From Sipunculus nudus (lineage: Eukaryota; Annelida; Sipuncula; Golfingiida; Sipunculidae), in the NCBI GenBank assembly GCA_026874595.1, contig CM049316.1, positions 27,635,339-27,699,338 on the forward strand: a DNA stretch of 64,000 nucleotides, read 5' to 3'. The stretch's first letter is position 1. Every line of letters begins with the position of its first letter. Both the position numbers and the translations under genes were made by a program. The notes under the pieces were generated by a model. The model saw only the letters and a program-made list of their open reading frames with translations. It did no database searches and was not told the origin of the DNA. Of the stretch, positions 19,501 to 42,533 are shown one piece after another.

Positions 19501-20597
19501 GCAGGAATGAGCATTAATAAAAAAAAAGTGAGAGTGTTAAGCCATTGTAGGATGTTTTGAGTCCAGATACCGGAAGCCTGTTATCCTGGCAGCGTTTTCA
19601 GGATACCACTCCAGGAAGTAACCTGCCGTGCATGTCATAACAAGCAGATTTACGACACCTTGGATTCAGGTATAAAACACAACTTGGCAAATCAGGTGAC
19701 AACAAGCATAAAATATAATAAACCAACACCAGATTATAACCTATTTGTAGCAGGATACACAACAGCAGTAAAGAACCTTTTTCTGATCTAACACAAAACG
19801 TTTTTTAACCATTGTAGCAAACAGTAAATTTTATGTAATAACTGTAAATAAGTAAAGGAAGATAAACAGATTTTCTTCGAATTTTCCATGGTGATAGAAA
19901 TGTGTAAATGATGTATATTCTTTCAATTTGAGTATTAAATGTAGAGACTTAATACTGGTATGTGAGGAGACCTATCAAGGACCCACCCTGATAATAAGTT
20001 AGGATTTGTGACCTGTTATCAGATGGCTTGACACCTTGATGGCGGACAGATAAAGGCCCATGGGATACAACCTGGGTATTTGACCCTACCAGTAGTTTAT
20101 GCCAACTACTGCTTCAGTTGGCTGTCACACGAAACACTTCAAATTAAGTCATGGAATAAGTCAAGAAATTATTAGCTAGATGGCAGCAGTGTTGACTGAC
20201 ATGCTTTCAGTTAGGCCATGATAACTGCGTCTGGTATGAGGCAGTGATTCAAAACAAATACAATGCAGCGCCACCTGTGCACTTCTAGCTGGTTTCAGTA
20301 TGCCATCCACTGAATAAAGGGAGTGAAGCAAAAATTTATAACTTTATATTCATGCAGCCTCTCTGTATTTGCCATTTTCTGGAAGAAAAATTCAGTGAAT
20401 TTTCTGTAGTAATTTTTCTAAATTCCGGGATAATTATTTTGGATTTATTTCAAGTCCGTTTGAAACATCTTAAAGTTGTAGTGGTAAACAAGTTGACACT
20501 TATATAACACTGAATACACTTGCAAGTAATAAACCCCCACTGAGTCATGTACTGACTGGTGGGTGTGCTGCTTGCAAGGTAACATGAGTCAAAATCA
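16541..20597. other. Intronic stretch of 4 kb, nothing recognised
   Basis: Unique AT-rich sequence with no repeat matching elsewhere in the window. A mixed-composition patch at about 17580-17830 stands out slightly from the surroundings but has no ORF or known motif. Confidence 0.55.
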
Positions 20598-20777
20598 ACA
20601 AGTGACCCATGGGTCATGACGCTCAGCTGACAGGGAAGAGATTCACAAAAGGAAATTTTATCATCAGAATGGTAGATACCCATTCAACTGAAGCGTCAAA
20701 CAGATTAACCAACAGGCCAAGATTTAGTCTGTATTTATATATCTGAAAAATAGAGAAAAAATGTGTAAACTTTAAAA

Positions 20778-22590
20778 ACTAGAATACGGGTAGCCGACAA
20801 GTGACTACGTGTATCCGCCAAAATCAGAGTGGAACGGGTGAAGTGAGGCATGGATTGAGTGGCAAGGGGAAACAGAGTGAGGTTTGTTGCATATTAGCAT
20901 GGATGTCTGCAGCCTAAATGTGTATGTAGGTTGTGCAACCTACCACAAATCCAGAAAGCTGTCCAAGTTGTATACATATGCAAAATTTTAGGCAGAAAAG
21001 TCAAACCACTACATGGATATGAGTGATTTTAGCCCACGGCAAACAAACAGACAGACGCTGTGCAAAAATGGTTGCAGGTGGCCCCTCCAGTTTTGTGTAT
21101 GATAAAGATCTATGTGAGATCTAAACACAAGCACAATTTTGGCCCAATTGGTCAAATGGTTCCTGAGATATTAGCTTGGATGTGTGCAGCGTTAACTAGA
21201 ATGTAGGTGGCGCCACCTGTCATAAAATCAAGAAAGCTATCCAGGATGTATAAACCTGCAAAATTTTAGGCAGTTATGTTAAACCACTATAGAGAAATGA
21301 GTGATTTTAGGCCACGGCAGACAAACAGACAGACGCTGTGCAAAAAGTGCAAAAATGGTTGCAGGTGGCCCCTCCAGTTTTGTGTATGATAAAGACCTAT
21401 GTGAGATCTATACACATACAAAATTTTGGCCCAATCGTTCAAACGGTTCCAGAGATATGAGCTTGGATGTCTGCAGCATAAACTAGAATAAAGGTGGCGC
21501 CACCTGTCATAAAATCAAGAAAGCTATCCAGGATGTATAAAACTGCAAAATTTTAGGCAGATATGTCAAACCACTGCCAAGATGTGAGTGACTTTATTGC
21601 ATGGCAGACAAACAGACAGACGCTGTGCAAGAATGGTTGCAGGTGGTGCCACCAGTTTTGCGTATGATAAAGAGCTATGTTAGATCTATACACATGCAAA
21701 ATTTTGGCCCAATCATTAATGGTTCCCGAGATATGAGCTTGGATGTCATTAGCGAGAACGAGAAAGTAGGTGGCGCCACCTGTCATAAAATCAAGAAAGC
21801 TATCCAGGATGTATACGCATACCGAATTTCAGTTGAATTAGTCAATTCACTGCAGAGATATGAGTGATTTTAACCAAAGGCAGATGAACAGATGGACACT
21901 GTGCAAACATGGATACAGGTGGCGCCACCATTTTTTGTGTATGTTATAGAGCTATCCAAGGACTACATTTGTATAATTTTTATTTCCTGATCAGTCAAAC
22001 GGTTCCTGAGATATGAGCTTGGATGTCATCAGGGTAAACGTGAATGTAGGTGGTGCCACCTGTCATAAAATCAAGAAAGCTACCCAGGATGCATAAAACT
22101 GCAAAATTTTAGGCAGATATGTCAAACCACTGCCAAGATATGAGTGACATTATCACACGGCAGACAAACAGACAGACGCTGTGCAAAAATGGTCGCAGGT
22201 GGCGCCACCAGTTTAGCGTATGATAAAGAGCTATGTTAGATCTATACACATGCACAATTTTGGCCCGATCGGTCAAACGGTTCCCGAGATAAGAGCTTGG
22301 ATGTCATCAGCGTGAATGAGAATGTAGGTTGCGCCACCTGTCATAAAATCAAGAAAGCTATCCAGGATGTATACGCATGCCGAATTTCAGTTGAATTAGT
22401 CAATTCACTGCAGAGATATGAGTGATTTTAACCAAAGGCAGATGAACAGATGGACACTGTGCAAACAGGAAAGCTTGGAAAGCTCATAAAATCAAGTCCC
22501 AGAGGAGCTCTCTGGAAACGAACGCAGCAACGGTGGAGTAACCCGGTCAAAAACATAGTATCCGCAAAACTTCGTTTTGGCGGGTACAAA
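20778..22590 (+). mobile_element. Element B1, nested in A1; six 280-bp units
   Basis: Begins ACTAGAATACGGGTAGCCGA. An imperfect palindrome ACAAGT-GACT-ACGTGT follows, then GTATCCGCCAAAA. Core units of 276-287 bp are marked by CGCCACCTGTCATAAAATCA or its variant at 20934, 21211, 21498, 21774, 22054 and 22332. Each full unit has two GGTGGCGCCACC palindromes about 140 bp apart, CAGACAAACAGACAGACGCT and GAGATATGAGCTTGGATGTC. It ends in a hairpin at 22558-22587 whose right arm TTTTGGCGGGTAC is the reverse complement of the 5' GTATCCGCCAAAA with one mismatch. The flanks GTAAACTTTAAAA and AAATACAGGTGGCTCCACC are contiguous in copy A2 near 33550, proving insertion. The short ORFs are repeat by-products. 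Confidence 0.85.
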
Positions 22591-22907
22591 AATACAGGTG
22601 GCTCCACCAGTCTGCAGAAACTAATAAAAACACTTAATGATCAATATCCATGCAAAGAATCATGGTGATCTCCGCATTAGTTGTTCAGATACTTCAGCTT
22701 TTGTATCAAATTGTCCAATATTCGAGGGATACTTCGGAGTCCTATAGCTTAAAGGATATGGGTAACAGAGACCTAATTTTAAGTTTCCACAGGCACTTTT
22801 CATGGGCCTCCTTACATGACAAGAATGAAGATTCTAGGTCCAGTTGTTGCGATTTGTACCCTGTTGACAGATAACCACATCTTTAAAGGTATCAAAAAAA
22901 GAGAAAA

Positions 22908-25522
22908 ACAAGGGACCTGTGGGTCACGACGCTCAGCTGTTATATATGAAAAAAAAAATATTATTTAGAAATGAGGCACATGCTGGTTTTGTGTGGTAAT
23001 AAATATAAGCTGTATTATGAGTTGTTGTTGTTTAGCTTATGTATGATTTTGATAGTACCTTTGGAGACAGGGAAGAGGATTGATTTCATTTATTTTATTA
23101 ACAATTGGAGTACTATTGTCACACAGATTTTGACTTGGCCATATAACTTATAAGCAGAACATATAATATAAGAGTTTAACTATTTATTAAAAAAAATTAC
23201 AAATACTGTCCCAAATATAATTTTTATTAAAAATATTAAGAGAATCATATGATTTTTTAAAATGAAATATAACTGATATGAAATATAAAATAATATTAAA
23301 GAATATATTCATGAATGCATTCATGAATACATTTTGAAAGTATTTGCATAAGTATTCATATACTTTCATTTTTACCTGAATTCCCATTCTTTATGCAAGA
23401 AATTTTATAATGGAGTACATAATCATATTCGTATTTAAATGCAATTACAAAGTATTCGCACCACGTCTGGTATTTATTCAGTTTTCACCAAACAATGATG
23501 TTGAGAATCCAGAATATACAAAATTCACACATTTAAATAATGATCATAAGTACCTGGTTTTATGGCTTTTATTTATATTAAAAAATAACTGTAAAAAATT
23601 CAATTGGACTAATTTCACATCAATGTACACACCAGACACAGTAGAAATCTAGATTAATATTATCAACTGCATCTTTGTCTATCATTAATTTCCTTCTAAT
23701 GATCCCTAATGATTAGTAATGAATAATATGATTTACTTCTTTATAATTAAAATTGAACTGAAAAATGCCAGGTGACTGCATGGTGTTATTTGGAATATGT
23801 GACATTCTACCCATCGATACAAGATTCTTATATCATCAGTAACTGCAAGTTAATTTCCTGTTATTATAAACTAACGAATTCCTTTTCTATTTTTCTTTAA
23901 TTTGTCATTAAAAACCAATAAAAATTTATTAATTTATTTTTTATTGTTATGTTGTTGGTTAAAACTACTAGATGAGTTGGGTTGGACACCTGGATCAACT
24001 GTGGCTGGCCATAAGCTGCCTGGATTCCTGTATGCCTCGCCTCAAGCGTGCATAATTTGATGAAAGGTCAACAAGGTCAACATACAGGTGACTCAAGAGG
24101 GGCTGGAGAGAGCCAAAGTCTGACAGGGTCTCATAAAAAACATTAATAAAAGCTACAATTTTTGGCCAATTTCTTTCAGCTTTCTAAACTAAAAAGCTGA
24201 AATCCTTATGTATGCATGATATAAAAATTATATCAACAGTGCTCACGGGAAACAAACGTGCCATGGTCACAGCTGGGCAAAATTTAAGGTATTAATTTTA
24301 TATTTATACTAATAACTTATAAAATTTGAAAAATTCAGAACTAATTTTGGGTATTCAATTGAATCTTGATTAAATAATGTTACATCCCTGACAAAAAAAT
24401 CTCTAGCAATGCCCTTGTTAAGGGAGTAAATATATTTGTTGATTTTTTACAAAGTGCATTATGTTTGGGCCCATAACTTAAAACAATTACGCAATACTGA
24501 CATCATTCTGGGATGTGCATAGAGAATGAAAAATATGTATATTGTTTATGATTAAAGTCAGATCAGTGGTTTTGATATTAGGCAGTCTTGAAGTGTAACA
24601 ATGGGTTTTTAATGGAAAAATGAAGTTTTTCATTAATATCTCGAAGGAATTAAGTCCTAGTGACCAAATTCTTGGCATGGTAGGGGATTTTGGAGACATC
24701 TAACTGTATGCCGAATTTAAGGAACTTAGAGCTGAAGCTGGGGAGCTGAGCTTTTGCAAACTGCATAACACTAGCTTGATGTAAACAATATGTTACATGG
24801 TGCTTGAAAACTTGATTAAAATCTACAGTTTTTGATCAACTGGTTTCAAATTTTTGGTGTTAACAGTTGAAATGCTAACAAAAACATGCTGTGAAAATTA
24901 AATCCCCAGTACTTACAGGAAAAAAACGTGCCATGGTCAAAGTTGGGCAAAATTTAAGGTACCAATTTTTTATTTTTATTAATATTTTAAAAAATTTAAA
25001 AGATTTTCATCTAATTTTGGGTATACAATTTAATTTTGATTAATTAAAGTTATATTACTGGAAAAAAGGTCCATAGCATTAACATTTTTTGTGTTAAGTG
25101 ATTAAATATCTTTCCTGATTTTTTACAAAATGCATTATGTTTGGGCCCAGAACTTTTTTAAATTGAATAATACAGACATAATTTCTGGCATGTACATAGG
25201 AACTATATCGAGGAATATTTATGGTAAATATGAGGAAAAACAGATGAGTGGTTTTGATATTAGGCAGTCCTAAAGTGTGAAAATAGGTTTTTAATAAAAA
25301 ATAGAGGTTTTTCCTTAATTTCTCAAAGGAACGAAGTTGCAAAGACCCAGTTTTCGGCTTGGTAGGAGATCTTGGGGACATCTAACATTATGCCGAATTT
25401 TGGATTCCTAGGTCTTACGGTTTCAAAACGTGCCACATCTACGGACGGACGGACAGACGGACGGACGACGGACAATGGACCACGACTATAGCTCAGATGA
25501 CTTATAGTCAGCTGAGCTAAAA
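22908..25522 (+). mobile_element. Element C, nested in A1; two 670-bp units
   Basis: Starts ACAAGGGACCTGTGGGTCAC, then GACGCTCAGCTG, terminal motifs of the A type. About 1.1 kb of very AT-rich sequence follows. Two diverged copies of a roughly 670-bp unit come next (AACGTGCCATGGTCA at 24255 and 24925; GCATTATGTTTGGGCCCA in both). A GACGGACGGACAGACGG tract leads to the 3' hairpin TAGCTCAG/CTGAGCTA (25489-25519) and AAA. The left flank TTTAAAGGT-TC-AAAA and right flank TCGTAAAAATTTGAAAAAAA are continuous in A2 near 33850-33900, so the boundaries are good to a few A residues. Insertion was into an A-rich run. No Rep/helicase ORF. Confidence 0.85.
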
Positions 25523-27600
25523 ATCGTAAAAATTTGAAAAAAATAGAGGTGGCAAACCCAGTCTGCAGAAACTGATGGAAAAGGTCATGATCAATATGTA
25601 TGCCGAAAATCATGACCATCAGTGTTGTAGTTATTGAGATACTGCAGTTTTTGTATCAAATTTTCCATTATTCTGGGGGGTAATTTTGAGCCATACAGCT
25701 TAGAGAATATGGGTAACAGAGACCTAATTTCAGGTTTCCATGGAGACTTTTAATGGGTCTCCCTGTGTGTCAAGAATGAAGATCCTAGGTCCAGTTTTAA
25801 TGATTTGTGCCCTGTTAACAGATGTTCATAACTTTAAAGGTCTCAAAAATAGAGAAAAAATTTGTAAAAAAACCCGAACAAATACAGGTGGTGCCACCAG
25901 TCTGCAGAAACTGATGAAACACTCCATGATCAATATCCATGAAAACAATTAGGTGGTCTCTGAATTAGTTGTTCAGATACTTCAGCTTTTGTATCAAATT
26001 TTCCATGATTCTGAGCTGTACTTTGGAGTGCCATAGCTCAAAGGAGATGGGTAACAGAGACCTATTTTCAGGTTTCCATGGAGACTTATCATGGGTCTCC
26101 CTGTGTGTCAAGAATGAAGATTCTAGGTCCAGTCGTTATGATTTGTACCCTGTTGACAGATAACTACATCCTTAAAGGTCTCAAAAATAGAGAAAAAAAA
26201 ATTGTGAAAATTTGAAAAATACAGGTGGCGCCACCAGTCTGCAGGTACTGTTGAAACACCTCTTGATCAATATGTATGCCAAAAATCATGACCATCAGTG
26301 TTGTAGTTATTTTGATGTTGCAGTTTGTTTTTATCAAATTTTCCATTATTCTGGGGGGTTATTGGGAGCCACCCATGGCTCAAAGGATATGGGTAACAGA
26401 GACCTTATTTCAGGTTTCCATGGAGACTTTTTATGGACCTCTCAGTGTGTCAAGAATGAAGATTCTTGGTCCAGTCTTTATGATTTGTGCCCTGTTAACA
26501 GCTGGTCACATTTTTAAAGGTCTCAAAAATAGAGAAAACAATTTGTAAAAAATAAAAAAAATACAGGTGGCGCCACTAGTCTGCAGGAAGTGATGGAACA
26601 TCTCATGATTAATATGTATGCCAAAAATCATGACCATCAGTCAAGTAGTTATTTTGATGTTGAAGTTTTTGTATGAAATTTTTGACTTTTCTGGGGGGTA
26701 CTTTGGGAGCCACCCATAGCTCGAAGGATATGGGTAACAGAGATCTAATTTACGGTTTCCATGGAGACTTTTAATAGGTCTCTCAGTGTGTCAAGAATGA
26801 AGATTCTAGGTCCAGCGGTTACGATTTGTGCAACGTTAACAGATGACAGGATCTTTAAACGTCTCAAAAATAGAGGAAAAAATCGTTAAAAAATCGAAAA
26901 ATACAGGTTGCGCCACCAGTCTGCAGGAACTTATGGAACATCTCATGATCAATATGTATGCCAAAAACCATGACCATCAGTGATGTAGTTATTGAGATGT
27001 TGAAGTTTTTGTATGAAATTTTTTACTTTTCTGGGGGGTACTTTGGGGCCCCATAGCTCGAAGGATATGGGTAACAGAGACCTAATTTCTGGTTTCCAAG
27101 GAGATTTTTCATGGACCTCTCAGTGTCTCAAGAATTAAGATTCTAGGTCAAGTCTTTACGATTTGTGCCTTGTTAACAGATGTTCACATTTTTAAAGGTC
27201 TCAAAAATAGAGAAAAAAATTCGTAAAAAATCGAAAAATAGAGGTGGCGCCACCAGTCTGCAGGAAGTGATGGAACATCTCATGATCAATATGTATGCCA
27301 AAAATCATGACCATCAGTCAAGTAGTTAATGAGATATTGAAGTTTTTGTATGAAATTTTTGACTTTTCTAGGGGGGGTACTTTGGGGCCCCATAGCTCGA
27401 AGGATATGGGTAACAGAGACCTAATTTCTGGTTTCCAAGGAGATTTTTCATGGACCTCTCAGAATCCTAAGTTACAAGGTTCTAGGTCCAGCGGTTACGA
27501 TTTGTGCCTGGTTAACAGACGGACAGATGGACAGACAGACGGACAACGGACAAAGAGTGATCGCTATAGCTCAGATGACTTTCAGTCAGCTGAGCTAAAA

Positions 27601-28342
27601 AAGGGGTTCAAAATCAAAAAGACTAGTTTATCGTTTGGGCCAATCAAAGTCCTTGACTTTACAATTGCCAGATTTGAGGAATTTTTGTAAAATCCACTGA
27701 CTGGACTAGTACTACTTCATTTTTAAAGCTTTTCCTCGGGTTTCAAGGAAGATAGGGACACCTGCTTCAATGTCATGGATTCACCACAGGCAATAAGTGT
27801 CATACTGATATGAATTTGTCAGGGATTCACAAATCATATTGGGATAGGGGCTTACATTCCCAGCTGGTATTGAAAGCTTATGATGGTCAAGTGACATTTA
27901 TCAAGGTTTAGACTTGTGATTATTTTACATTATTGGAGGCAAATAAAATTACAAATGGCTTGCACGTCCATGAGGTGACCTCACTGCCTTCCAAGACAGA
28001 TAGTGCCATTCAATTTCGTAATAAACTCCTTCACAGGGCAAAGGTAAAAATATCCAGACATTCAGCAATGAATATACCATAAAAAGGATGGAAGAAGTCA
28101 CACATCTGGAGCTTAACATACTGCCCGGTGGGTAAAAGGGTGAACATATCCAGATATGGCAATAAATAAACCCCCAGTGATATTATATGTGGTGGGTATA
28201 CCATGTATATGGAAACAAGTTAACCATATGTAACATACTGATGGGAAGAGCCATAAACAACAGGACAGATACTAGACAAGGACGAGGGTTGCTGTGAGGC
28301 AGATGCTGTAGAGGGGTGAATGTTTCCATGCATCAAGTAATA
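27601..28342. other. Intronic stretch, nothing recognised
   Basis: Unique intronic sequence between two elements. Confidence 0.5.
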
Positions 28343-29896
28343 ACTAGAAGTTTCTTGGCATCAGAGATGCCATAGTATCCCCAGAAAATTAATGCATACC
28401 CCCTTCAAAAATACGCCCCCATCTTCAGAAGCATATCCTGACACTTGACAAGCCCCCAGGGTTTCTTCATGTATGATCTTCAAAACCAAGGTCAAGATCA
28501 CTAGTCATAAAAAAATATCAGAGATATTGGTGGAAATATTTTTTGTGTCAAATTATAAAGGAAACAGAAGCAGTACATCATAAATTATGAGGTTAACAAG
28601 AATCCTATATATTCTCAGATTTGACCTTGAGGACCAAACTCAAGGTCTCCAGTCTTCGAACATGTCTGGGACCTTGGTGGAAACAACTTGTGTATCAAAT
28701 CTGAAGAAAAGAAATACTGTACTTCTAAAGTTATGGGGTTAACAAAATTCCTATGTTCCTGCAGATTTGATCTTGAAAAGCAGGGTCAAGGTCACCAGTC
28801 TTCAAACGTGATGTCAGAGACCTTGGTAGAAACGATCTGTGCATTACATTTGAAGAAAAAAATAAAGGGTACTTAAAAAATCATGAGGTTCACAAAAATC
28901 CTATATATCAGCAGATTTGAACTTGACGGTGAAGGTTAAGGTCACAAGTGTTCAAACTCTTTCAACAACTTATCATTTGACATTTTTAATTTTGATTCTC
29001 AGATAGATACATCTATCCACACGAGAAATAATATTTTTTAACCAAATGTGGAAATTTTCAAGGTAAAGGCCACTCTTATAATAAAGGTCATGACTCCAAT
29101 TTAAATATACCTCATCCCATAACCCATATCTATTTATATGCATAATATTAAAGAAATCTGTCCATTAGTTTTTTTACAAATAACTCACAGGACTGTCAAG
29201 AGGCAATTTTGAGGGTATTAAAAAGCACAAAAACAAGAAAAAGACAAACAAGATGGTGCCACCTGTCTCGCATAGAATAAGCTATCCAAGATCTTCGGTC
29301 AATCTAATTTTTGGAAGAATCAATGCATCCCTTATTGAGATTTTGTGTAATTTTCACCAAAATTGAAAATATTCAAGGTCAAGGCCAATCATATAACAAA
29401 GGTCATGACCCCAATTTAAATATACCTCATCCCAAACCCATATCTATACATATATATAATTTATGAAAGAAATCTGTCCATTAGTTTTTTACTTACAATG
29501 CTCAAAGTACTGTCAAGAAGCAATGATGGTGGTATTAAAAGTCACAAAAACATGAAAAGGATAACAGGTGGTGCCACCAGTTTCTGGTACATGACAACAC
29601 TATCCAAATCTTTGGTCAACTTGATTTTTGGATCAATCCATGTAAAATAAAGGAATTTGTATGATTTTCCCAAAAAATGGACCTATTCAAGGTCAAGGTC
29701 ACTCTCTTATTTTAGGTCAAGACCCCATTTCAAAAAGGCTTCGTCCTCTCACCTATATCTATGCACATGTCAGGTTTGGTAAAGATCTGTGAAATGTGTT
29801 TTGAGTTCTTCTGCAGACAAGATTAATCTGTGGTGGCGGCAGGACTGTCATAAAACCATATACCCATAGTATCCCGACTTTGTCTGGGGATACAAA
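28343..29896 (+). mobile_element. Element H, full-length copy
   Basis: Begins ACTAGAAGTTTCTT, then the perfect palindrome GGCATC-AGA-GATGCC (28357-28371) and GTATCCCCAGA (28375-28385). The core first has about four 145-bp units marked by CAGATTTGAnCTTGA and CAAGGTCACCAGTCTTCAAA. Two larger units of about 310 bp follow (29020-29690), carrying GGTGGTGCCACC-type palindromes near 29253 and 29567 and homologous to half-units of element B. The 3' end is a hairpin at 29869-29893 with arms GTATCCC/GGGGATAC; its right arm TCTGGGGATAC is the exact reverse complement of the 5' motif. A truncated inverted copy is at 896-1262. No ORF of interest. Confidence 0.8.
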
Positions 29897-31049
29897 TATG
29901 TTATATACCATATACTGACTAGTGCTATAACAAACATTCAAAATCTCATGAGCCCATTTTCTATGCAAAAAAATCCAAGCACAAAAATTTGCCTACTTAA
30001 ATATTGTTGGCATACAAATTTTGTGAGTAACCTTATTGAAGCTAACAGAAAAATAGAAATAGTTGAGAATTACTCAAAAATTCTTATGAGACTGAAATTT
30101 ATCTAATATTTGGAAGCAGTAATTTGCTGTGTGCTCATTGTTACTGGGCAAAAGCAACACCAAATATAGATTGTTTATTGCATATAATCTTAAACACTAA
30201 ACCAAACTGAAGTTAATGAACACAAAATCTTATCTATAAATCTTATCTTATGATACATAAATAAACCTCCATTTGGGTTATTCAGTTATTTCTTGCTACA
30301 TACATGTATCATATAAGAATGTTTGCAAACCTATTTGTGTATCACCATTAAACCATATTACGAATTGGTGCGTCTCATGATACACAGCCGACCCTATTAC
30401 CGCAGGGCCATCACTCAGAATGTAATAAATGCTATATGACATCAGGAGCAGAACTATTTGAAGTGTCACATCCTGTGATCTGAACATTTCAATGGAAATT
30501 TCTTGGTTTGGGGACCGTAGCATGTTTTAAGATTAGATATGAATCTCTGCAATAACATGGTGTATGCAGTCTGGACTGAACAGGTTAACATTCAGTCCTA
30601 ACCTCATTCTTGTACAGAGGTTTCATGAGACTGTCATAAATTTCCAACCCTCCAACTTTGGTAAATATAATACTGGGTCTTTATATCACTGTATTGTTTA
30701 TATAGTTTACTTTGTCTTTTGTCAAATAACTGTTCCCAAAGAAAGTTTTGTAATATACTTTTACAATGGCAATCTCTTTTTCTTCAACAACCGCCAAACA
30801 GCCAATCATATTTAGTACAACATTTAAATATGACATCAACATCCATCAAAGCATATCATTCCCCCTGATTCAAAGTCAAGAGTGAAACATGCACATACAA
30901 TAGCATTCCGCCTGATTTTGGAAAATATATATCCTGCATGGTGAAACCTGTCAACATTTGCAACTGTTAGTATCTATAAGTTAGGATATAGACAAACATT
31001 CCTTCAGACTAAAATCATCCCCCTTTTGTAATAAAACTGCAAAACGTCA
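29897..31049. other. Intronic stretch, nothing recognised
   Basis: AT-rich intronic sequence without matches in the window. Confidence 0.5.
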
Positions 31050-31345
31050 AAGGTGGCAGCGGTACCACAAAGAAATCTGGTGTACTCTGACCTCATTAAA
31101 TATGAGAGGACATTGCCAAGAACTGAAATCAGGAAAGGAACTGGTTAATTTTTATAGTTTTACAGTTCCATCAAAATCATTAATATTCCTGGAAATAAAT
31201 TTTAGTAGTGACACCACAAAGAAACCAAGTAACCTCTAACCCAATTAATCATGGATAGATTTTGCCCAGATGAGATAACCTATTTGTAAATATTTATAAG
31301 GAGTTTTATGAAAGTCCATCATTATTCCTAGTATGTTATTGGGCA
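31050..31345 (+). repeat. Dispersed repeat E, copy 2 (degraded)
   Basis: Two diverged units start with TACTCTGACCTCATTAAATA (near 31084) and AACCTCTAACCCAATTAAT (near 31230). They contain TTGCC-AGA-TGA and AAGTCCATCATTATTCCT segments as in the copies near 3.3, 37 and 43.5 kb. It ends about 100 bp short of the exon at 31445. Confidence 0.5.
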
Positions 31346-31444
31346 ACACTAAACATTAAGGGGCAGATGCTGCCCATATCATATGTGACCTGCATTGGGC
31401 AGGCACATAAGAATGGTTCATCCGTCTGATAGCCATGCACTCAC

Positions 31445-31548
31445 CTTTTGATGCCATCTCAGACTCAATGTATTCCAGCGTGACATCATCTTCACAGATA
31501 TCGTATGGCATATTACCATCAGCGTTCACTGACAAGAGGTCTGCACCC
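31445..31548 (-). CDS. PPP1R16: PPP1R16-like exon: end of ankyrin repeat 3 and linker
   Basis: This 104-nt exon follows the acceptor CCTTTTTAG (AG at 31549-31550) and ends at the donor AAAG|GTGAGT. Its first G completes the Lys codon begun by AA at the end of the exon at 51461 (phase 2), and its last G begins the Gly codon completed by the exon at 138-14 (phase 1). It encodes 34 full codons beginning [20 protein letters not shown] and ending IESEMASK. The VNxDGNMPYDxCED block is characteristic of PPP1R16A/B and differs from the NSEGDTPLDIAEEE-type sequence of the related PPP1R12 (MYPT1) proteins, which is the main reason for the family call. The ankyrin domain in this family positions substrates next to PP1 catalytic subunit bound at an upstream RVxF motif. 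Confidence 0.95.
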
Positions 31549-31611
31549 CTAAAAAGGAGAACAAGATATTCAGAATAACAAAAACAACTTTCCCCCTCAA
31601 CTTTTTAATTT

Positions 31612-31810
31612 ATTGGATTAAATAGTGATTGTGTAAAGACTAGTGATACTTTGGCCCTTTGACATAAGAGTTTATCTAGATGTCAGAGTGCCACCCATAA
31701 TTATGACATTATAATTGGATTAAATAGTGATTGTGTAAAGACTAGTGATACTTTGGCCCTTTGACATAAGAGTTTATCTAGATGTCAGAGTGCCACCCAT
31801 AATTATGACA
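31612..31810. repeat. Perfect 97-bp tandem duplication
   Basis: The segment starting ATTGGATTAAATAGTGATTG and ending CACCCATAATTATGACA is present at 31612-31708 and again at 31714-31810, identical by eye and separated by TTATA. A second small duplication follows (GAACCACACTGTACTTAAGC near 31811 and 31851). It lies 64 nt upstream of the exon acceptor in the transcribed direction. Exact identity suggests a recent event, a polymorphism or an assembly artefact. Confidence 0.9.
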
Positions 31811-31859
31811 GGAACCACACTGTACTTAAGCTTTGATGAGATACACTGATGAGAACCAC

Positions 31860-33145
31860 ACTGTACTTAAGCCTTGATCCAAATATTTTCATCATTTCTG
31901 ACAACACCTCATGGCCTATAGATTCACTGTCACTTAAAATAGATCAGATAAATCATTAGATATGTTGGTGCACTTTCTAATTACACCTACCCTGTACAAG
32001 ATTAAAATCTGTTGTAACTCAGCATATTGGTAACACCCCTTCCCTCCCAGCATGTTTATTCAATTTCTGACCACAAGCATGTCTCAGGGGGATTTCTGGA
32101 TGGTAACCAACTTTAAGGTGACACATAAAATGATTGCTACCACAGAGATGGATTTACACTTTATTTTATGAGTTCACATGTATTCTTTGGTGAAATTTCA
32201 TCACTCGTAGCCTAACGTTAAGATTAAATGTATATGCTATATCAATGCAACAGGATGGGTGGCCACTGCAGTGCATTTCCCTGTATGACTTTTGTCACAA
32301 CTCAAGTAGGTCTACATTCCAACATAATTGAGTAATGAGTTGTGTATTCACCACTAGATGTTGGACTCTGGCTATTGTTCTTGCCTTAATCATTATAGGT
32401 GTGCTTTCATCACTCAAAAATGAGCTGGTGCTAATGTTTAAGAGCTCCTCAACACTTGAAATCTCAACAAAACCTCTTACACAAACAGACCAGAAACCTA
32501 TAATATTTTAGGTTACAGGCATTAAAAAGACACTGTACAATAAACCATAACTTGTATGTAGTTTTATATGATAATATGATGATGCTATTGAGTATAGTTA
32601 ACATCTTAACATCTGATCAAAGACAATATAATTATAAGCCTTGTACACATCTAAGTGACTTTATCTCTCTCTCGATCCATGGGTGGTAGAAGTTGAAACT
32701 GCTTTGTTAATCCTAAGCCTGGCTCTGAGTATCCCCCAGGCAGACATCTCCCCATGCATTTCCTTGAAAGCCCCCTAGCTGCACTGTAAGCCTGTTTACT
32801 GAATCCTTGAACTGTGGCACGGCCAGTGCACTCATCCACAGTAAATGTAATAATCAGTTCCCTTCAGCCAGATCTGACTAACTTCACAAGGTCAATCTAC
32901 CCTTAACAAATCTGACTTCCAGGGTATTTTCTATCAATTCTGGGCCACTGGCCAAGATTCAAAACTGCAGTTCCAAAATCAACCTTTCAGCATCTTTCTA
33001 ATGTTCGAAAATGTTTAGTAATTTAGAAGTTGATTTGTAAGAAAAAGATATAAGATATACTGGTGAGTGAGAGAAAGAGACCAACAGAAGATAAGTCTGA
33101 GTAGGTCAGAGAGAAAGTGATTGTCAGGCCAGATGGAATCATCTG

Positions 33146-33148
<3 letters not shown>
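31860..33148. other. Intronic stretch, nothing recognised
   Basis: A minus-strand open segment at 32651-32839 has mixed composition but no recognised family and no clear splice sites. Confidence 0.5.
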
Positions 33149-33190
<42 letters not shown>

Positions 33191-35325
33191 AATGGAAAAC
33201 ACAGAAAAGACAGAAAAGAGACTGAGACACAGATTGAGACAACATATGAGACAGAGTGACACAAAAGATGAGACAAAGAGAGACAGTAGAGGAAGACAAA
33301 GAGAAAGACAAAAGAGAAAGACAAAGACAAAAGTGAGAAAATCAAAGGAGAACAAGACAAAGGAAAGAAATACAACAAGTGACCCATGGGTCATGACGCT
33401 CAGCTGACTGGGAAGAGATTTGCTAAAGGAAATTTTATCATCTGAATGGTAGTATATACCAATTCAACTGATGCATCAAACAGATTAACCAACAAGCCAA
33501 GATTGTGTCTGCATTTATATATATTTCAAAAATAGAGAAAAAATGCGTAAACTTAAAAAAAATACAGGTGGCTCCACCAGTCTGCAGAAACTAATAAAAA
33601 CACTTAATGGTCAATATACATGCAAAGAATCCTGGTGAATGCATTAGTTGTTCAGATACTTCAGCTTTAGAATCAAATTTTCCATTATTCTGAGGGATAC
33701 TTTGGAGTCCTATAGCTTGAAGGATATGGGAAACAGAGACCTAATTTCAGGTTTCCACAGACTTTTCATGGGCCTCCTTGCATGACAAGAATGAAGATTC
33801 TAGGTCCAGTTGTTACTATTTGTACCCTGTTGACAGATAACCACATCTTTAAAGGTCTCAAAATAAGAAAAAAAAAATTCGTAAAAATTTGAAAAAAATA
33901 GAGGTGGCGCACCCAGTCTGCCGAAACTGATGGAACACCTCATGATCAATATGTTTGCGAAAAATCATGACCATCAGTGTTGTAGTTATTGAAATACTGC
34001 AGTTTTTGTATCAAATTTTTCATTATTCTGGAGGGTATTTTGGAGCCATACAGCTTAAAGGATATGGGTAACAGAGACCTAATTTCAGGTTTCCATGGAG
34101 ACTTTTCATGGGTCTCCCTGTGTGTCAAGAATGAAGATTCTAGGTCCAGTTGTTATGATTTGTGCCCTGTTAACAGATGTTCATATCTTTAAAGGTCTCA
34201 AAAATAGAGAAAACAATTCGTAAAAAAACCTGAACAAATACAGGTGGTGCCACCAGTCTGCAGAAACTGATGAAACACTCCATGATCAATATCCATGCAA
34301 ACAATTATGGTGATCTCTGCATTAGTTGTTCAGATACTTCAGCTTTTGTATCAAATTTTCCATTATTCTGAGCTATACTTTGGAGTGCCATAGCTCAAAG
34401 GATGTTACCCTTCAGGTTTCCATGGAGACTTTTCATAGGTCTCTCACTGTGTCAAGAATGAAGATTCTAGGTCCTGTCTTTACGACTTGTGCCCTGTTAA
34501 CAGATATTCACATTTTTAAAGGTCTAAAAATAGAGAGAGACAGAGACCTAATTTCTGGTTTCCAAGGAGATTTTTCATGGACCTCTCAGAATGTCAAGTT
34601 ACAAGTTTCCAGGTCCAGCGGTTACGATTTGTGCCAGGTTAAAGGACGGATGGACAGACAGACGGACAGAAGGACGACGGACAGAAGGACGACAGACAAA
34701 GGGTGATCGCTATAGCTCAGATGACTTACAGTCAGCTGAGCTAAAAAGAGAGACAAAGGAAAGACAAAACTAAAGAGAGAGAGACGAAAGAGAGAAAGAT
34801 AAAGGAGAGATAGAAATGAAGAGATAAAAGAGAAAGATAAAACAGAGAAAGACAGAAAGACAAAGAGAAAGACAAAGGAGAGATAGACAAAGAGAAAGAC
34901 AAAGGAAAGAAAGTCAAAGAAAAAGAGACAAAGACAAAGGAAAGAAAGAGTCGAAGAGAAAGACAAAAGAGAAAGACAAAGGGAAAGACAAAGGAAAGAA
35001 GGTCAAAGAGAGAAAGACAGAAAAACAAAGGAGAGATAGACAAAGAGAAAGACAAAGGAAGATAGACAAAGAAAGGCAAAACAGGATAAGATGGAAAGAC
35101 ATGGAGATCGAAAAAGACAAAGAGAAAGACAGAGGAAAGAAAGTCAAAGAGAAAGATAGAGGAGAGAGAGACAAAGGAGAGAGAGATGAAAGAGAAAGAC
35201 AAAAGAGAAAGACACAGAGAAAGACAAAGGAGAGATAGACAAAGAGAAAGACAGAAAAATACAAATCAGAAAAAGACAGAAAGACAAAGGAGAGAAAGAC
35301 AGAGAAAGACAACAAAAGAGACAGT
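33149..35325 (+). repeat. (GA)n microsatellite and (GACAAAGARA)n polypurine tract, split by element A2
   Basis: A pure GA run (33149-33189) leads into purine-rich sequence made of GACAAAGAGAAAGACAAAGG-like words (33190-33374). The same composition resumes at 34747-35325 with very few pyrimidines, so the inserted element A2 interrupts one original tract of about 750 bp. Long minus-strand ORFs rich in Ser, Phe and Leu across it are low-complexity artefacts. In the host pre-mRNA the tract is CU-rich. Confidence 0.85.
33375..34746 (+). mobile_element. Element A2, 1.37-kb copy with three 339-bp units
   Basis: Starts ACAAGTGACCCATGGGTCAT, then GACGCTCAGCTGACTGGG, and is close to A1 over its first 180 bp. 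GTCTGC-type unit markers are at 33580, 33916 and 34256, a spacing of 336 and 340 bp. A GACGGACAGAAGGACG tract and the 3' hairpin TAGCTCAG/CTGAGCTA (34713-34743) with AAA end it. The right arm GTCAGCTGAGC is the exact reverse complement of the 5' GCTCAGCTGAC. Both flanks are the same GACAAAGG-type purine tract, which fixes the boundaries. It is uninterrupted and serves as the empty-site reference for insertions B1 and C. The last unit has a deletion around GGATATGGG. Confidence 0.88.
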
Positions 35326-36859
35326 TCCAGGTCAAGATTCATAGTGAGGACAAGAAAGACTAAAGAATGTCTATGAGGAATAGTGAAAGAGAAAAGGAAA
35401 ATTACAACTGCTTCCTGAAAGAAAGAAAATAGACTCAAGATGAGTTAGATTTAACAAAAATATTGTGTTACTAATCCTGAGTGATTTCTAGCAAATTTAT
35501 ATTCTATTACTGGATACTTCTGGGGAGCTTCATCAATTTTTTTCATAATGGCCTTATCCGAAATGTGTGTTTGACCGCATACCCCAGATTTTGAATGCAA
35601 TCTTTGGTATACTAAAAGAACACTAGAAACTGCTTGCCTATAAGAGTCTAGTACATGGAAACAGACTAAGAATTAAATCAAGAGCAGGAGTTGGAATGGG
35701 AGCTGTTGTTATTCAGTTCGGGTGTCAAGTGAACATTTCTGTCCATTTAGCTTGATAAAAGCACGCAACCATCACATTCTGTATAATGTGAATGGTGCAA
35801 AATTGTATATAAGATGTTTGTATAGCAACAAAAGTAAATGTTTACATATATTAGAGTTTCTCTCCAGTGTCCACAGTAATCTGATCCTATCAGCCAAACT
35901 GTAAGTTCCTAAAATGAGGTTACCTGTACATTTGTTTAACAGTCACATGAGCTGTTCCAAACCTTAATGGAACAGTACATCCTGCTATGAGCCAGACAGA
36001 CAAATGGAAAGACACTAAATGAACCACTTTAGCCCAGCATGACTTCTATACTGTGGTAGGCTTTTAGTTTGTAAGGGTTTCAAATTCATGATTTCCACTG
36101 AAGGAAAATTATCATGAAAATAAAACCTCCCTGAATAAGATGCCTCATCCAGACGAAGGAAACATCTGTTTTATTAGAGTCTCACTGGCAACTCATTCCT
36201 TGATGCCGGCCCATAAAACGTGAAAACTCTTGAAGAAAGATTGATAATAAAGATGATGAAATAAAGATAATAACATATTTTATGTACCCTGTTAATCCCA
36301 TAAATTTTTTAAATAATATATGATATTTCATAATCAGCTATAATGAAGAAACATTTTCCACTCGGGCTTCTTCAAATTGTTCAGAGTATGTGATCATTAT
36401 TTAATAATTAATATATTAATCATTACACTCTGTGAAGTTAATGCATGGAAATTAAGATTGCCAAAATGGAACCCTAACAAAAAAACTGACAAAGTGAAAT
36501 TCTCAAACATCTAACCCTGCAAATATTACGCCAACTGCATAAAACCTGTACAAGGGTTTTTAAAAATGGTCCTTTGTATTTTTTACCAATGAATACAATC
36601 TGGAAGCTTCCATTACATCAGTTTAATTCATGACTGATGATTAAACTAAAACCTGTTATTTAATTATTAATTGATTATGTCATGTTCCTCCTCCAGCTTT
36701 TACTTTTCATCAACAGTAATCATGTCAAAGATTCAAATCATGATGTTATATATAAAGTCTTAATTGTCATATTATTATTTTTGTTCTGACTTGTCCATTC
36801 CAGTTAAAATCAAAATAATGAACAAAAGCACTCCAAAAGTACACAGTATGCCTGTCATA
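35326..36859. other. Intronic stretch with one short dispersed repeat I
   Basis: At 36070-36155 the sequence TTGTAAGGGTTTCAAATTCA, a central palindromic part and AATAAGATGCCTCAT match 52935-53020 (GCAAGGGTTTAGATTT ... AATAAGATGCCTCAT). Otherwise nothing is recognised. Confidence 0.5.
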
Positions 36860-37180
36860 TATGTCTTTTGACCTTTGACCTCATGAAATATGCAAAGATT
36901 TTTCCATGAACTGAATTCTGGTAAAATCAGTTCATTGAAAATCTGTCAAATTCCTGGTACCTAAGTTATCCAGGTGACACCATAAAGAAGTGTGGTGACC
37001 TCTGACCTCATTAAATAAGATGGACTTTGCTCAGAAATTATAACTAGTGGGCGTATCTATTGGTTAATAGTTAAAATTAGTTTTGTGAAAATCCATCAAA
37101 TCCCTGTTAAGTTATTGTGGTGACACTAAAAGTAAACAGCCAGACAGATGGATGTACCAGCCTGTACAGCCGCATGGGTG
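36860..37180 (+). repeat. Dispersed repeat E, copy 3
   Basis: Two units begin TGACCTTTGACCTCATGAAA (near 36870) and GACCTCTGACCTCATTAAAT (near 36997). Conserved CTGAATTCTGGT, GAAAATCCATCAAAT and a CAGACAGATGGATG tail match the copies at 3.3 and 43.5 kb. Non-coding. Confidence 0.6.
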
Positions 37181-38942
37181 CTATCCATGCCATAATAAGA
37201 CCTGTCTTCAATGGGTATATAAAATGTCTCTCACTAGACAGGCACTCCATATAAAGAATATTCTTAATATTAATATATATACAAAACAAATGGAAAAGTC
37301 ATTTCCTATGATGTAAATGTAAAGTGGCAGAATTGTTCTAAAGTCTTATATAAATCTGAACAGTAAAAGTTAAAGGAGCTATAGCTGTAAGGGTTGGTCA
37401 AATACCCGTGAGGACTGCACTCAAACATCTAACCAAGTAGTTTAAGACTGCAGATTAAATATCAAAGATAGGTACTGTCTGATTTGAAACCATTATTTAA
37501 TACCAGTATGAGCTGAAAGGAGGATATACTCTGAGCACTGAAGAACCAAGGCAAATAGGATTTTCTTCTTGCAATGCCCCACATCACATATACCAAGGAT
37601 ACAAATCATCCAGCAAACCAACTGTCTGGTTATGCCAGTACATGACCTACTTAAGTGGCCAGTTGCCAAGTTACTCAATTGGTACTGTCTGTTCTGGTGA
37701 CATCAATATACAGAAGTACTGGTGACATAAATATACAGCATAGATTCATGTTGAGCTTTAGCCTGAGCAGTGGACATGCAGTACAGTTGTATACAAAGGC
37801 ACTTAATGGGAATAAGATATCCAAACATACAAACCAATATAGCCATTAGGAGACTTTATTTTCCTTCCTTTTGCTACAAGGACAGATCCATATCTTATTC
37901 CAACCATTGTCATAATTCTATATCATATGGTTATACCTTCATCTACATTCAGATAAGTCATTATCAAGACTTTTTGATTTATGGTTTTATGTGCACCGTC
38001 TAGCAATAATCTAGAAGTTGTAACCTGTCATAAAGATATTCAAGCAAATCTCTGAAACTCTATAAAATTTAACCGTTTTGCCTTCCAGACAAGTTTACTA
38101 TAACTGAACTATAACTATAACGCCCTACCCAAGTCATTGGAAGACTTCCTATAAAACCTGTAGTGTAGTTAGTGAAGACAATGTTCAAGGTAATTGATGT
38201 CATCTGATCTTGCCAGGGTTAAAAATTCTCACCTTTTTAAAGTTTGTTTCAAGGAACAGTACAATTTTAAGGACATGATCAAATAATATTGCAAAAACAC
38301 CTGGTGTAGATCATTTAGTTAAACAAAATATTGACTCCTGCAGCATGATATACCATGTCTGCCTTTCATCAAGGATTCCAGATAACCACTGATATAATAA
38401 ACAGGCCAAGATCCATTTATTCATGTTGGCTGTATGTGTTTTTTTTTATTTCATAAACCGACAAAAATTTATGAAACTTTTTATATTTAGAAAATTATTT
38501 TCATGACTTTTTCAACAATTTTACTGTTTTAAAACAAATCAGTCTCCAGGCAAAAAGTTGCAAAATATCAATTGTACCTCTATCTATTATGTCATTACAT
38601 GAGATGTGTTAAAATTTCACTTTAAATTCACTCCTTGTTGCCCCTGGGAAATGCCACACCCTTTCATTGAAGAAATGTGTAATTTAAGCATGCTCCCCAT
38701 TATAACATTGATTTAATCATGCAGTGGTCACGATGTCTACCTGGAAGGCAATGTCCATGTATTCCCAGGTCAAAAAGGAAATGTATCTCATTACACAGGC
38801 AGTGCTCTGTCATCTAGATTACTTATAAGACAGTCTCAGTGCAAGACTGTTAACGCAAGTCAAGGCTGGACATATTGAAACTGTCTCTAGTTCACAACGG
38901 GTTTAAATTCTTGATATTCGTGAAAGGACAATTAACAGATAA
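37181..38942. other. Intronic stretch, nothing recognised
   Basis: AT-rich intronic sequence; short readings on both strands have no family resemblance. Confidence 0.5.
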
Positions 38943-41900
38943 ACTAGATGACCTGAGGTCACGCGCTTGCCGGAAATGATGCTAAGTTAGTCAGATGAAC
39001 GAGCAGTGTCAAAGTGAAAGAAAATAATCCATAGTTTGTGAAGAAAGAAGCAATATTAACAAAGTTCTAAAGAAAATAAGATTTTGATATATTTTGATCA
39101 CCTTGACCTTGATCTTTAACTTATTTGAATAATAAACATAGGGCTTCCATATATCATCACGATATATGACAAGTGTAATTTACAAAACGATTCCTGCAAA
39201 ACTGTGGCCAGTAGAATGCTACATGTGAAACGCAAGAACCAGCAAGAAGGCGAAATTGAGGACAACTGACAAACAGACAACATACTGACAAACTGACCCA
39301 AGATTGTGAACAGATGACTTAATCATGTTATAAAGAAACCTCAGAGGAAGATAATAAGCTATAGTATGTAAATGAGGTTTATAGTTTTGGAGATATGGCC
39401 AAAAAATGATATGTTGTGCAAGTTTGAGTGCACCGCCCCCTAGCGGCCAATTCTGGAAAATGAAAAATCCGTTTCGAGATATTAGTGTAAGACATAAGAT
39501 GTAATAGTTTTAAAAGGATTCTTTCAAAACTGTGGCCTGTAGAATGCTATATGTGAGACGCAAGAACCGGCAAGCAAGCGGATTTGAGGACAACTGAGAA
39601 ACAGACGGACACACAGACAAAGTGACTCAAGATTGAGACCAAATGAATACACCAGGTTTTTTGAAAGACCCAGAGAAAGAAAATAAGCTATAGTTTATGT
39701 AAATGAGGTTTATAGTTTTGGAGATATGGCCAAAAAATGATATGTTGTGCAAGTTTGAGTGCACCGCCCCCTAGCGGCCAATTCTGGAAAATGAAAAAAT
39801 CCGTTTCGAGATATTAGTGTAAGACATAAGATGTAATAGTTTTAAAAGGATTCTTTCAAAACTGTGTCCTGTAGAATGCTATTATGAGACGCAAGAACCG
39901 GCAAGCAAGCGGATTTGAGAACAACTGAGAAACAGACGGACACACTGACAAAGTGACTCAAGATTGAGTCGAAATGACTACACCAGGATTCAGAAAGACT
40001 CAGAGGATGAAAATAAGCTATAGTTTATGTAATTGAGGCTCACAGTTTTGGAGATATTGCCAAAACATGATATGTTGGAGAGGTTTGCACCCAGCGCCCC
40101 CTAGGGGCCGAATTAAAAAAATGAAAAATTGATTTCGAGATAATAGTGTATGACTTACAATATGCCAGTTTCAAAAAGATTCCTGCAAAACTGTGGCCTC
40201 CAGGGCAAGATTACTGAAATCTCGAAATATCTCGTTTGACGATTACAGATTACAGACAAAAGCGCCGAAGGTGAAGAAGAGCAAAATTAGCGATAGTTTA
40301 TGTAGGTAAGGTTTATAATTTTGGAGAGATAGCCAAAACATGATATGTTGGGGAGGTGAAAGTGCAGCGCCCCCTAGTGGCTATATCCGGAAAAGGAAAA
40401 ATCTGTTTTTAGATATTAGTGTAACACATAAGATGTACCAGTTTTAAAAGGATTCCTGAAAAAAACTGTGGCCTGTAGAATGCTATATATGAGACGCAAG
40501 AACCAGCAAGTAGGCGGATTTTAGGACAACTGACAAAGAGACAACCTGACAAAGTGACACAAGATTGAGACCAGATGACATTACTAGGTCATGGAGAAGA
40601 CTCAGGGAAAGAAAAGAAGCCATAGTTTCTGTAATTGTGCCTTTGGGTTTTAGAGATATGGCCAATGTAATGATATGTGTGTGAGGGTCGTTTGCAGCGC
40701 CCCCTAGCAGCCATATTCAAAAAATGAAAAAACAATTTCGAGATACTAGTGTAGGACTTATGATATGTCAGTTTCAAAAAGATTGCTGCAATAATGTGGC
40801 CTTTGGCGCAAGATGAATGAAATCTCGAAATATCTCTATTCACGAGATATTTTACGAGATACTGCAAGACTTTAATAAAATCTTGTAGTACTAGTTAAAT
40901 GCTACCTGATGCAAAAAAACTAGATCACTCTAGCTTTAAAACTGACAAAGTTAGAAAAATAAGACCCCTTATTTTCGAATATCCTGACTTTTCCCCCAAA
41001 ATTTGTAATCATGGCTACGGCAAATTTGAGTCAGCTACACACCAGATGACAGGCCTTGGAACGACGATTAAAATGAGCTATTGTTGAAGTAGATACGACT
41101 GAAAGTCACACAGATATGGAGAAAAAACCGTTTTAAGAAGTTTTGACGACCTTGACCTTGACCTTTCACCTATATTAACCAAAAACAATAGGGCACCTAG
41201 AAATTATCTTTTTCATCATCCCTGTAAGTTTCAAGGTTATTGTGGCAAAATTGTGGCCAGGAGAGTGGTGACAAACAAACAAGAACCAGCAAGAAGGCGA
41301 ATTTGAGGACAACTGACAAACAGACGGACACACTGACAAAGTGACTCAAGATTGAGTCCAGATGACTACTCCAGATTATGGAGACGACTCAAAGGAAGAA
41401 TAAAGCTACAGTCTATGTAACTGAGGTTTATAGTTTTGGAGATATTGCCAAAGCATGATATGTTGGGAGAGGTTCGAGTTCAGCGCCCCCTAGCGGCCAT
41501 ATCCGGAAAATGAAAAATTGGTTTCGAGATATAAGTGTAAGACTTAAGATGTAATAGTTTCAAAAGGATTCTTTCAAAACTGTGGCCTGTAGAATGCTAT
41601 ATGTGAGACGCAAGAGCAAGCAGGCGAATTTGAGGACAACTGACAAACAGACGGACACAATGACAAAGTGACACAAGATTGAGACCAGATGACATTATCA
41701 GTTTATGGAGAAGACTCAGAGGGAAAAAATAAGCTATAGTTTATGTAATTGAGGCTTTGGGTTTTAGAGATATGGCCAATGTAATGATATCTGTGTGAGG
41801 GTCGTGTGCAGCGCCCCCTAGGAGCCATATTCAAAAAATGAAAAAACAATTTCGAGATACTAGTGTAGGACTTATGTTATGTCAGTTTTAAAAAGATTCC

Positions 41901-42533
41901 TGCAATAATGTGGCCTTTGGCGCAAGATGAATGAAATCTCGAAATATCTCTATTCACGAGATATTTTACGAGATACTGCAAGACTAGTAATAAAATCTTG
42001 TAGTACTAGTTGAATGCTACCTGATGCAAAAAACTAGATCACTCTAGCTTTAAAACTGACAAAGTTAGAAAAATAAGATCCCTTATTTTCGAATATCATG
42101 ACTTTTCCCCAAAAATTTGTAACCATGGTTACGGCAAATTTGAGTCAGCTACACACCAGATGACAGGCCTTGGAATGACAATTAAAATGAGCTATTGTTG
42201 AAGTAGCTATGACTAATAGTCACAAAGATATGAAGAAAAAAACGTTTTGAGAAGTTTTGACGACCTTGACCTTGACCTTTGACCTATTTTAACCAAAAAC
42301 AATAGGGCACCTAGAAATTATGTTTTCGAACATCCCTGTAAGTTTCAAGGTTATTGTGGCAAAATTGTGGCCAGGAGAGTGGTGACAAACAAACAAACAG
42401 ACAGACAAACAGACAAACAGACATACGCAACTGACCAATATGCTTGCCGAAATCTTTGATTCCGGCAAGCAACAAACAGACATCCGCGACTGACCAACCT
42501 GCTTGCAGAAATCGAAGATTTCCGGCAAGCAAT
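38943..42533 (+). mobile_element. Element F: composite array of 330-bp units
   Basis: Begins ACTAGATGACCTGAGGTCAC, containing the palindrome TGACCT-G-AGGTCA (38949-38961), then GCTTGCCGGAAAT (38965-38977). Core units are about 330 bp, marked by CGCCCCCTAG at 39434, 39765, 40095, 40368, 40698, 41484 and 41812, with TTTGGAGATATGGCCAA, TTTCGAGATA and GACGCAAGAACCGGCAAGCA. A block of about 1115 bp (about 40590-41280) is duplicated at about 41705-42395. The 3' end has two successive hairpins, 42442-42470 and 42501-42530. The second has arm GATTTCCGGCAAGC, whose last 13 bases are the exact reverse complement of the 5' motif. No transposition ORF is visible. Confidence 0.8.
40822..40860. repeat. Long internal hairpin in element F (also at 41936-41974)
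   Basis: ATCTCG plus AAATATCTC, loop TATTCAC, then GAGATATTT, TA, CGAGAT: a 15-bp stem with one 2-nt bulge. It is repeated in the duplicated block. It may be the 3' terminus of a further element captured inside F, because an ACTAGAT start-like motif follows about 60 bp later (near 40918). Confidence 0.6.

Follow-up and report, generated by a model that had tools for sequence, protein, structure and literature searches.

How do the two ends of a mobile element stay matched when their sequences differ from family to family? The question is raised by a 64,000-nucleotide stretch of the Sipunculus nudus genome (contig CM049316.1; hereafter the window), in which we identified elements of five families, A, B, F, H and J. 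An initial annotation of the window had taken them for the Helentron type, and rightly so: the elements are HINEs, short passengers of autonomous Helentrons, and the class literature describes both as moving by rolling-circle replication. Complementary subterminal inverted repeats (subTIRs) lie close to both ends in all five families, and in each the 5' subTIR is adjoined by an inverted repeat (IR) that is flawed. Pairing of the ends across families is already known; the lesion in the 5' hairpin is less familiar. We judge it an evenly balanced question whether these hairpins have an obligatory central lesion at about nucleotide 9, kept across families and variously made, together with a fully pairing 3' subTIR, the whole serving as a strand-exchange switch or as a recognition bulge for an HUH nuclease.

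As all the elements run along the minus strand, their 5' and 3' ends are swapped relative to the initial annotation: its 3' hairpin is the 5' end of the element, and its 5' palindrome with the adjoining motif is the 3' end. The palindrome as 5' end was rejected, since the HINE layout and the T-run that precedes the hairpin argue against it. Read on the minus strand, the 5' end consists of Ts, the family motif (subTIR), a short loop and the imperfect complement (IR), and the 3' end of the complementary subTIR, a palindrome and CTTGTT or CTAGTT. The termini lie outside the motifs, with CTWGTT 23-34 nt past the 3' subTIR (A, B, F and H) and the T-run just before the 5' subTIR.

Hairpins were counted across the whole genome using patterns in which the arms were fixed letters and the middle was free; flaws elsewhere in the stem and other subTIR sequences are invisible to them. 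The patterns matched 27,163 times for A, 6,025 for B, 5,070 for F, 2,750 for H and 6,076 for J, most J hairpins being counted twice, once on each strand. Reversed control patterns gave 0 matches genome-wide. The letters are known for the 100 matches listed per pattern, all on contig C1 and partly in tandem arrays (20 of the listed F matches come from one array), and were tallied by reading; what follows on hairpin form refers to these matches. None of the 100 listed was perfectly paired in A, B, F or J. A mismatch or a bulge of 1-2 nt is present near the middle of the hairpin in all five families. Its type varies between and within families; its place is nearly constant. The A middle is T in 94 matches, with C, A and TG in 2 each, and the rarer TG form has its bulge on the other strand. 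The F middle is always 3 nt opposite 4 nt (37 CGG, 25 TCG, 13 CTG, 13 CCG, 7 TGG, 3 TTG, 1 CAG and 1 CGT). The H lesion is mostly an A.G mismatch or a CA bulge, and that of J mostly C.C. When folded, the main forms of A and J give 8 bp, a mismatch, 5 bp and a triloop; a bulge takes the place of the mismatch in B and in F with CGG, and the A.G form of H gives 8 bp, a mismatch, 3 bp and a triloop. The lesion is nucleotide 9 from the stem base in the commonest form of each family.

Because of this one lesion near the middle, the hairpin IR does not pair fully with the 5' subTIR; the usual 3' subTIR does. With the lesion place left free, A 3' ends gave 5,845 matches, and the pairing G was present in 100 of the 100 listed, again all on contig C1. 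The 3' subTIR was without the lesion in 10/10 A, 11/11 B and 16/16 F ends from sampled loci, which partly repeat the window (L001, L015, L027, L040) or one another (L031 and L032). H was left out of these 3' counts because its 3' pattern fixed the base opposite the lesion. The lesion is predicted with DNA parameters to cost 2.9 to 8.2 kcal/mol. Of the two partners of the 5' subTIR, the 3' subTIR is predicted to be the stronger binder, exceeding the IR by 2.4 to 7.6 kcal/mol in A, B, F and H (treated as separate strands, an approximation). The motif is indeed the complement of the hairpin arm, as the initial annotation had it, but for the outer arm the distant motif is a better match than the neighbouring arm of the hairpin.

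Bao and Jurka (2013; PMC3627910) proposed for Helitron2 that the asymmetrical terminal inverted repeats (ATIRs) pair with each other, that the 5' hairpin is lost in the process and that the endpoint of replication is set in this way. A lesion would fit this end-pairing model because it would make strand exchange between the ends favourable. From the sequences in hand we favour this reading tentatively, giving it somewhat less than an even chance. The weak 5' hairpin would form first in the single-stranded element; the 3' subTIR, once single-stranded, would displace the IR and open the hairpin; and the two ends would thereby be brought together, marking termination or circle closure. The 3' hairpin of the canonical Helitron Helraiser is reported to act as terminator. 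Support for the favoured reading comes from an architecture that matches HINE/DINE-1, from an autonomous partner of F with the same ends (below), and from the hairpin counts, the mostly unflawed 3' ends, the predicted energies and the nearly constant place of a lesion of varying type (above). The flaw and the fully pairing far end may be a clue to how ends are recognised or closed. If true, they would be a defined, testable part of Helentron ends. The rule of a 5' flaw at one place and a fully pairing 3' end lends itself to a cheap test with short oligonucleotides, and would be a sharper signature for finding such elements. Single end motifs match thousands of times in this genome. No experiments on end recognition or end pairing by Helentron proteins were found in the literature searched.

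Several observations weigh against the favoured reading. Perfect A hairpins, counted directly in the whole genome, give 268 readings, or 134 loci (about 0.5% of ~27,029 loci). Perfect H hairpins account for 4 rows, that is 2 of 98 loci, among the matches listed, and one of the 66 sampled 5' hairpins that fit family patterns, a J copy (L022), is perfect. The place is also not constant throughout, being nucleotide 7 or 7-8 in the other F forms and 8-9, not 9, in the CA form of H. Pairing is restored in only 6 of 10 sampled J 3' ends. The Fusarium FoHeli1 element is printed with a short 5' hairpin that lacks a lesion, which means that the flaw is not general among Helitron2 elements. One genome was examined, and the families may share ancestry and are not surely five independent cases.

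An irregular stem may instead be a recognition mark, in which the HUH nuclease domain of the Helentron protein would bind a folded hairpin whose stem is irregular at a defined spacing from the base, end pairing being a separate need. The nearly constant place and variable type of the lesion are what such a mark would show. Hairpins of Escherichia coli repetitive extragenic palindromes (REPs), on which the HUH enzyme TnpA-REP acts, need a conserved mid-stem bulge; activity is lost when the stem is made regular, and the bulge bases are only moderately selected (PMC8266576). However, other REPs are perfect palindromes (PMC8266576), and the likeness is an analogy only, as REPs are bacterial and without end-to-end subTIR pairing. 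The mark would not itself explain full pairing by the 3' subTIR, and we regard it as possible but on the unlikely side.

It is rather improbable, in our estimation, that the lesion is a neutral inheritance, in which a few source elements chanced on a flawed IR of little function and were copied with the flaw unselected. Within a family there is mostly one inherited state (T in 94 of the 100 A matches listed), copying from few sources is possible, the families may be related, and CpG decay of two 3-nt states could give much of the variety in F. The Drosophila IR has been described as partial and/or interrupted (PMC2374699). Such an origin sits poorly with stems that are otherwise well paired in five families and flawed near the same place by differing lesions, although the fixed-arm patterns counted no flaws elsewhere. 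The rarity of perfect versions could also mean that flawed hairpins persist because a perfect stem of 13-14 bp makes DNA unstable or triggers silencing. This is very improbable: 134 perfect A loci persist, the elements themselves keep perfect palindromes of 6-7 bp on their 3' side, and instability or silencing would not set the place of the flaw.

The pairing that drew attention to this locus is a real signal, kept while the motif sequence differs between families. All eight motifs (four pairs) quoted in the initial annotation are present: A at 20621 and 33398 against 25507, 27585 and 34731, B1 at 20811/22575, F at 38965/42518 and H at 28375/29883. The one mismatch noted for B1 is present as well, but is private to that copy, since the intact B motif with its hairpin accounts for all the B matches counted above. 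In a combined scan, an 11-nt inverted repeat had to be accompanied by a hairpin at one of its ends and followed by a stem of 6 bp or more at the other. The window yielded 7 binned matches, representing 6 distinct pairs (three A, two F and one H); over 40 first-order Markov shuffles the count averaged 0.05 and never exceeded 1. B is absent from these matches because of the B1 mismatch. A scan that ignored the hairpin and asked for an 11-nt inverted repeat, a T-rich start and a CTWGTT end gave 9 clusters in the window and 1 to 10 in 20 shuffles (mean 4.25), one of which reached 9. As shuffles reach the cluster count of the window, the short inverted repeat alone is weak evidence and the combination is strong. 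The inverted repeat alone was dropped as proof, the scan being hardly above shuffles in the window.

The pairing had been suggested to be possibly new as a code across families. It is not, as covariation of subTIRs or ATIRs is already in print (PMC2374699, PMC3627910, PMC7492417). The 13-bp subTIRs of Drosophila differ between species (Yang and Barbash, 2008; PMC2374699), two mosquito Helitron2 elements have 8-15 bp ATIRs in which changes at one end are compensated at the other (Bao and Jurka, 2013; PMC3627910), and the 11-12 bp subTIRs of the oyster Cg_HINE have element-specific changes in 11 elements (PMC7492417). A fixed place of the lesion, or the contrast with the 3' end, was not found in the literature searched, and may show in figures or supplements, which lie outside the text searched.

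The elements otherwise resemble these known systems. Descriptions of HINE/DINE-1 give subTIRs, an IR beside the 5' subTIR, a microsatellite and a 3' stem-loop (PMC4067079, PMC7492417, PMC2374699), and the elements here share the subTIRs, IR, 3' stem-loop, T-rich insertion and pairing kept across families with those accounts, and in A, F and J the GTCY microsatellite (PMC2374699; Thomas, 2014, PMC4067079). Those accounts call the IR partial and/or interrupted, and the text consulted mentions neither a fixed place of the flaw nor a contrast with the 3' end. In Drosophila melanogaster no repeat has more copies than DINE-1, which is itself a HINE (PMC4067079). The Pacific oyster Cg_HINE is alike in its left flank (subTIR, IR and microsatellite), central tandem repeats and right flank (subTIR and palindrome), but has other sequences and an IR given as 7-12 bp complementary, the text consulted stating no lesion rule (PMC7492417). 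Helitron2 shares the ATIR-made 5' hairpin, complementary 3' ATIR, compensatory changes and end-pairing model, although the description consulted does not mention a lesion (PMC3627910). A canonical Helitron (Helitron1) would have 5'-TC ... CTRR-3' and no 5' hairpin; here a 5' hairpin is present, the ends are CTTGTT/CTAGTT and the start lies in a T-run.

The initial annotation had proposed a search for an autonomous Rep/helicase partner with the same ends. We identified one for family F, the only family for which it was looked for (not A, B, H or J). Helitron_like_N has at least 143 matches in the 1.43 Gb genome, and two Helentrons have F ends, C11:50374843-50400606 (25,764 bp) and C7:31563966-31589513 (25,548 bp). 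Both have the F 5' hairpin at the start, and the F 3' subTIR, palindrome and CTTGTT at the end; the palindrome differs from that of F in the window in the centre only. The alignment of the two copies ends within about 2-3 nt of both element ends, and beyond the 3' end of these elements no match was seen with four additional probe pairs. Compared stretches are 97.7 to 99.7% identical, the C7 sequence being incomplete by some 0.5 and 1.4 kb at two internal places. In C11 the element is immediately preceded by a further 3' end (L066, C11:50374808-50374872), forming a head-to-tail junction (CTTGTT/GCTTGCC). Such a junction is expected from circles or rolling-circle tandems.

The C11 element has an open frame of 2,235 codons between stops, with Rep and a PIF1-like helicase in one frame. 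Pfam matches in the 2,104 aa searched are Helitron_like_N, PIF1 and OTU; the last 130 aa, outside the Pfam query, are endonuclease-like by eye only. The reading direction of the frame is the reverse of the one that the element ends define, as reported for some Helitron2 elements and Helentrons (PMC3627910, PMC4067079). A sister frame on C8 (2,250 codons; DNA 85.6% identical over 6.6 kb) has a Pfam match to Exo_endo_phos as well. This sister Helentron was rejected as an F element, as no F ends could be located in the 15.5 kb of C8 sequence examined.

A-type 3' ends stop at CTTGTT in 13/13 rows, with flanks that diverge beyond (two rows are from the window, one of them repeated as L040). B ends stop at CTAGTT in 12/12 rows and J ends at CTAGTT in 10/10, and F ends at CTAGTT or CTTGTT in 14/16, the other two rows (one site) having CTAGTC. 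On the 5' side the elements begin with a run of Ts whose length varies. Insertion of B1 can be read against A copy 2, which is empty at this site: there are 8 Ts in the empty copy and 5 + 3 Ts around B1, if B1 ends at CTAGTT, as for insertion into a T-run without target duplication. A1 (22907-25519) lies inside A copy 1, likewise in a T-run, with a join that is placed only approximately, and its uninterrupted counterpart is 33859-33891. The features in the window are listed in the table.

Table. Ends of HINE-type elements in the window (strand and positions refer to the 64,000-nt stretch).
Feature	Position	Strand	Remarks
J (fifth family) 3' end	7900..7939	-	subTIR decayed; palindrome GTGTCGTTCCGACAC; terminus CTAGTT
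J 5' hairpin	9216..9246	-	copy diverged
A copy 1, 3' end	20597..20631	-	subTIR 20621-20631; palindrome TGACCCATGGGTCA; terminus CTTGTT
B1 3' end	20777..20823	-	subTIR 20811-20823; palindrome imperfect; terminus CTAGTT; nested in A copy 1
B1 5' hairpin	22558..22587	-	subTIR with one change private to the copy
A1 (second A-type element) 3' end	22907..22939	-	diverged; nested in A copy 1
A1 5' hairpin	25489..25519	-	
A copy 1, 5' end	27567..27597	-	T-run, then flawed hairpin; GTCY-type microsatellite on its inner side
H 3' end	28342..28385	-	subTIR 28375-28385; palindrome TGGCATCTCTGATGCCA; terminus CTAGTT
H 5' hairpin	29869..29893	-	bulge of 2 nt (CA)
A copy 2, 3' end	33374..33408	-	without interruption at the sites where copy 1 has B1 and A1
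A copy 2, 5' hairpin	34713..34743	-	
F 3' end	38942..38977	-	subTIR; palindrome TGACCTCAGGTCA; terminus CTAGTT
F 5' end	42442..42530	-	tandem pair of hairpins, 42442-42470 and 42501-42530

The CTAGTT/CTTGTT terminus is common to all five families despite their differing subTIRs (window positions 7900, 20597, 20777, 28342 and 38942). J had been considered a family without a 3' end; this was rejected when its 3' end was located via the CTWGTT terminus. The palindrome after the 3' subTIR is clear in A, F, H and J and imperfect in the B consensus, and H-prime 3' ends at two loci (L007 and L075) are without it. A GTCY-type microsatellite (GTCY- or GTC-rich) follows the A, F and J hairpins; none was present in the short stretches inspected after B and H. 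The 5' hairpin loops are three-base (GAA, AGA, AAA, TTC, ATA and GTA), and GAA is also found in the printed FoHeli hairpins.

B1 within A seems to have been amplified as a composite. All 10 loci for this B 3' end (L037-L046, one of which is the window) have the same A sequence after B, and the A 3' end lies ~190 bp beyond B in these loci (window 20597-27597); the query was without A sequence, yet selected B copies identical to that of the window. In A, B and H the tandem repeats of the central region, which otherwise look dissimilar, all contain the palindrome GGTGGCGCCACC or a close variant (window 21199, 21486, ~26230 and ~29567). Hairpins of the F 5' end are found in tandem: the two in the window are ~60 bp apart, and 20 form an array at C1:290268-307143 with spacings near 60 bp and 1.27 kb.

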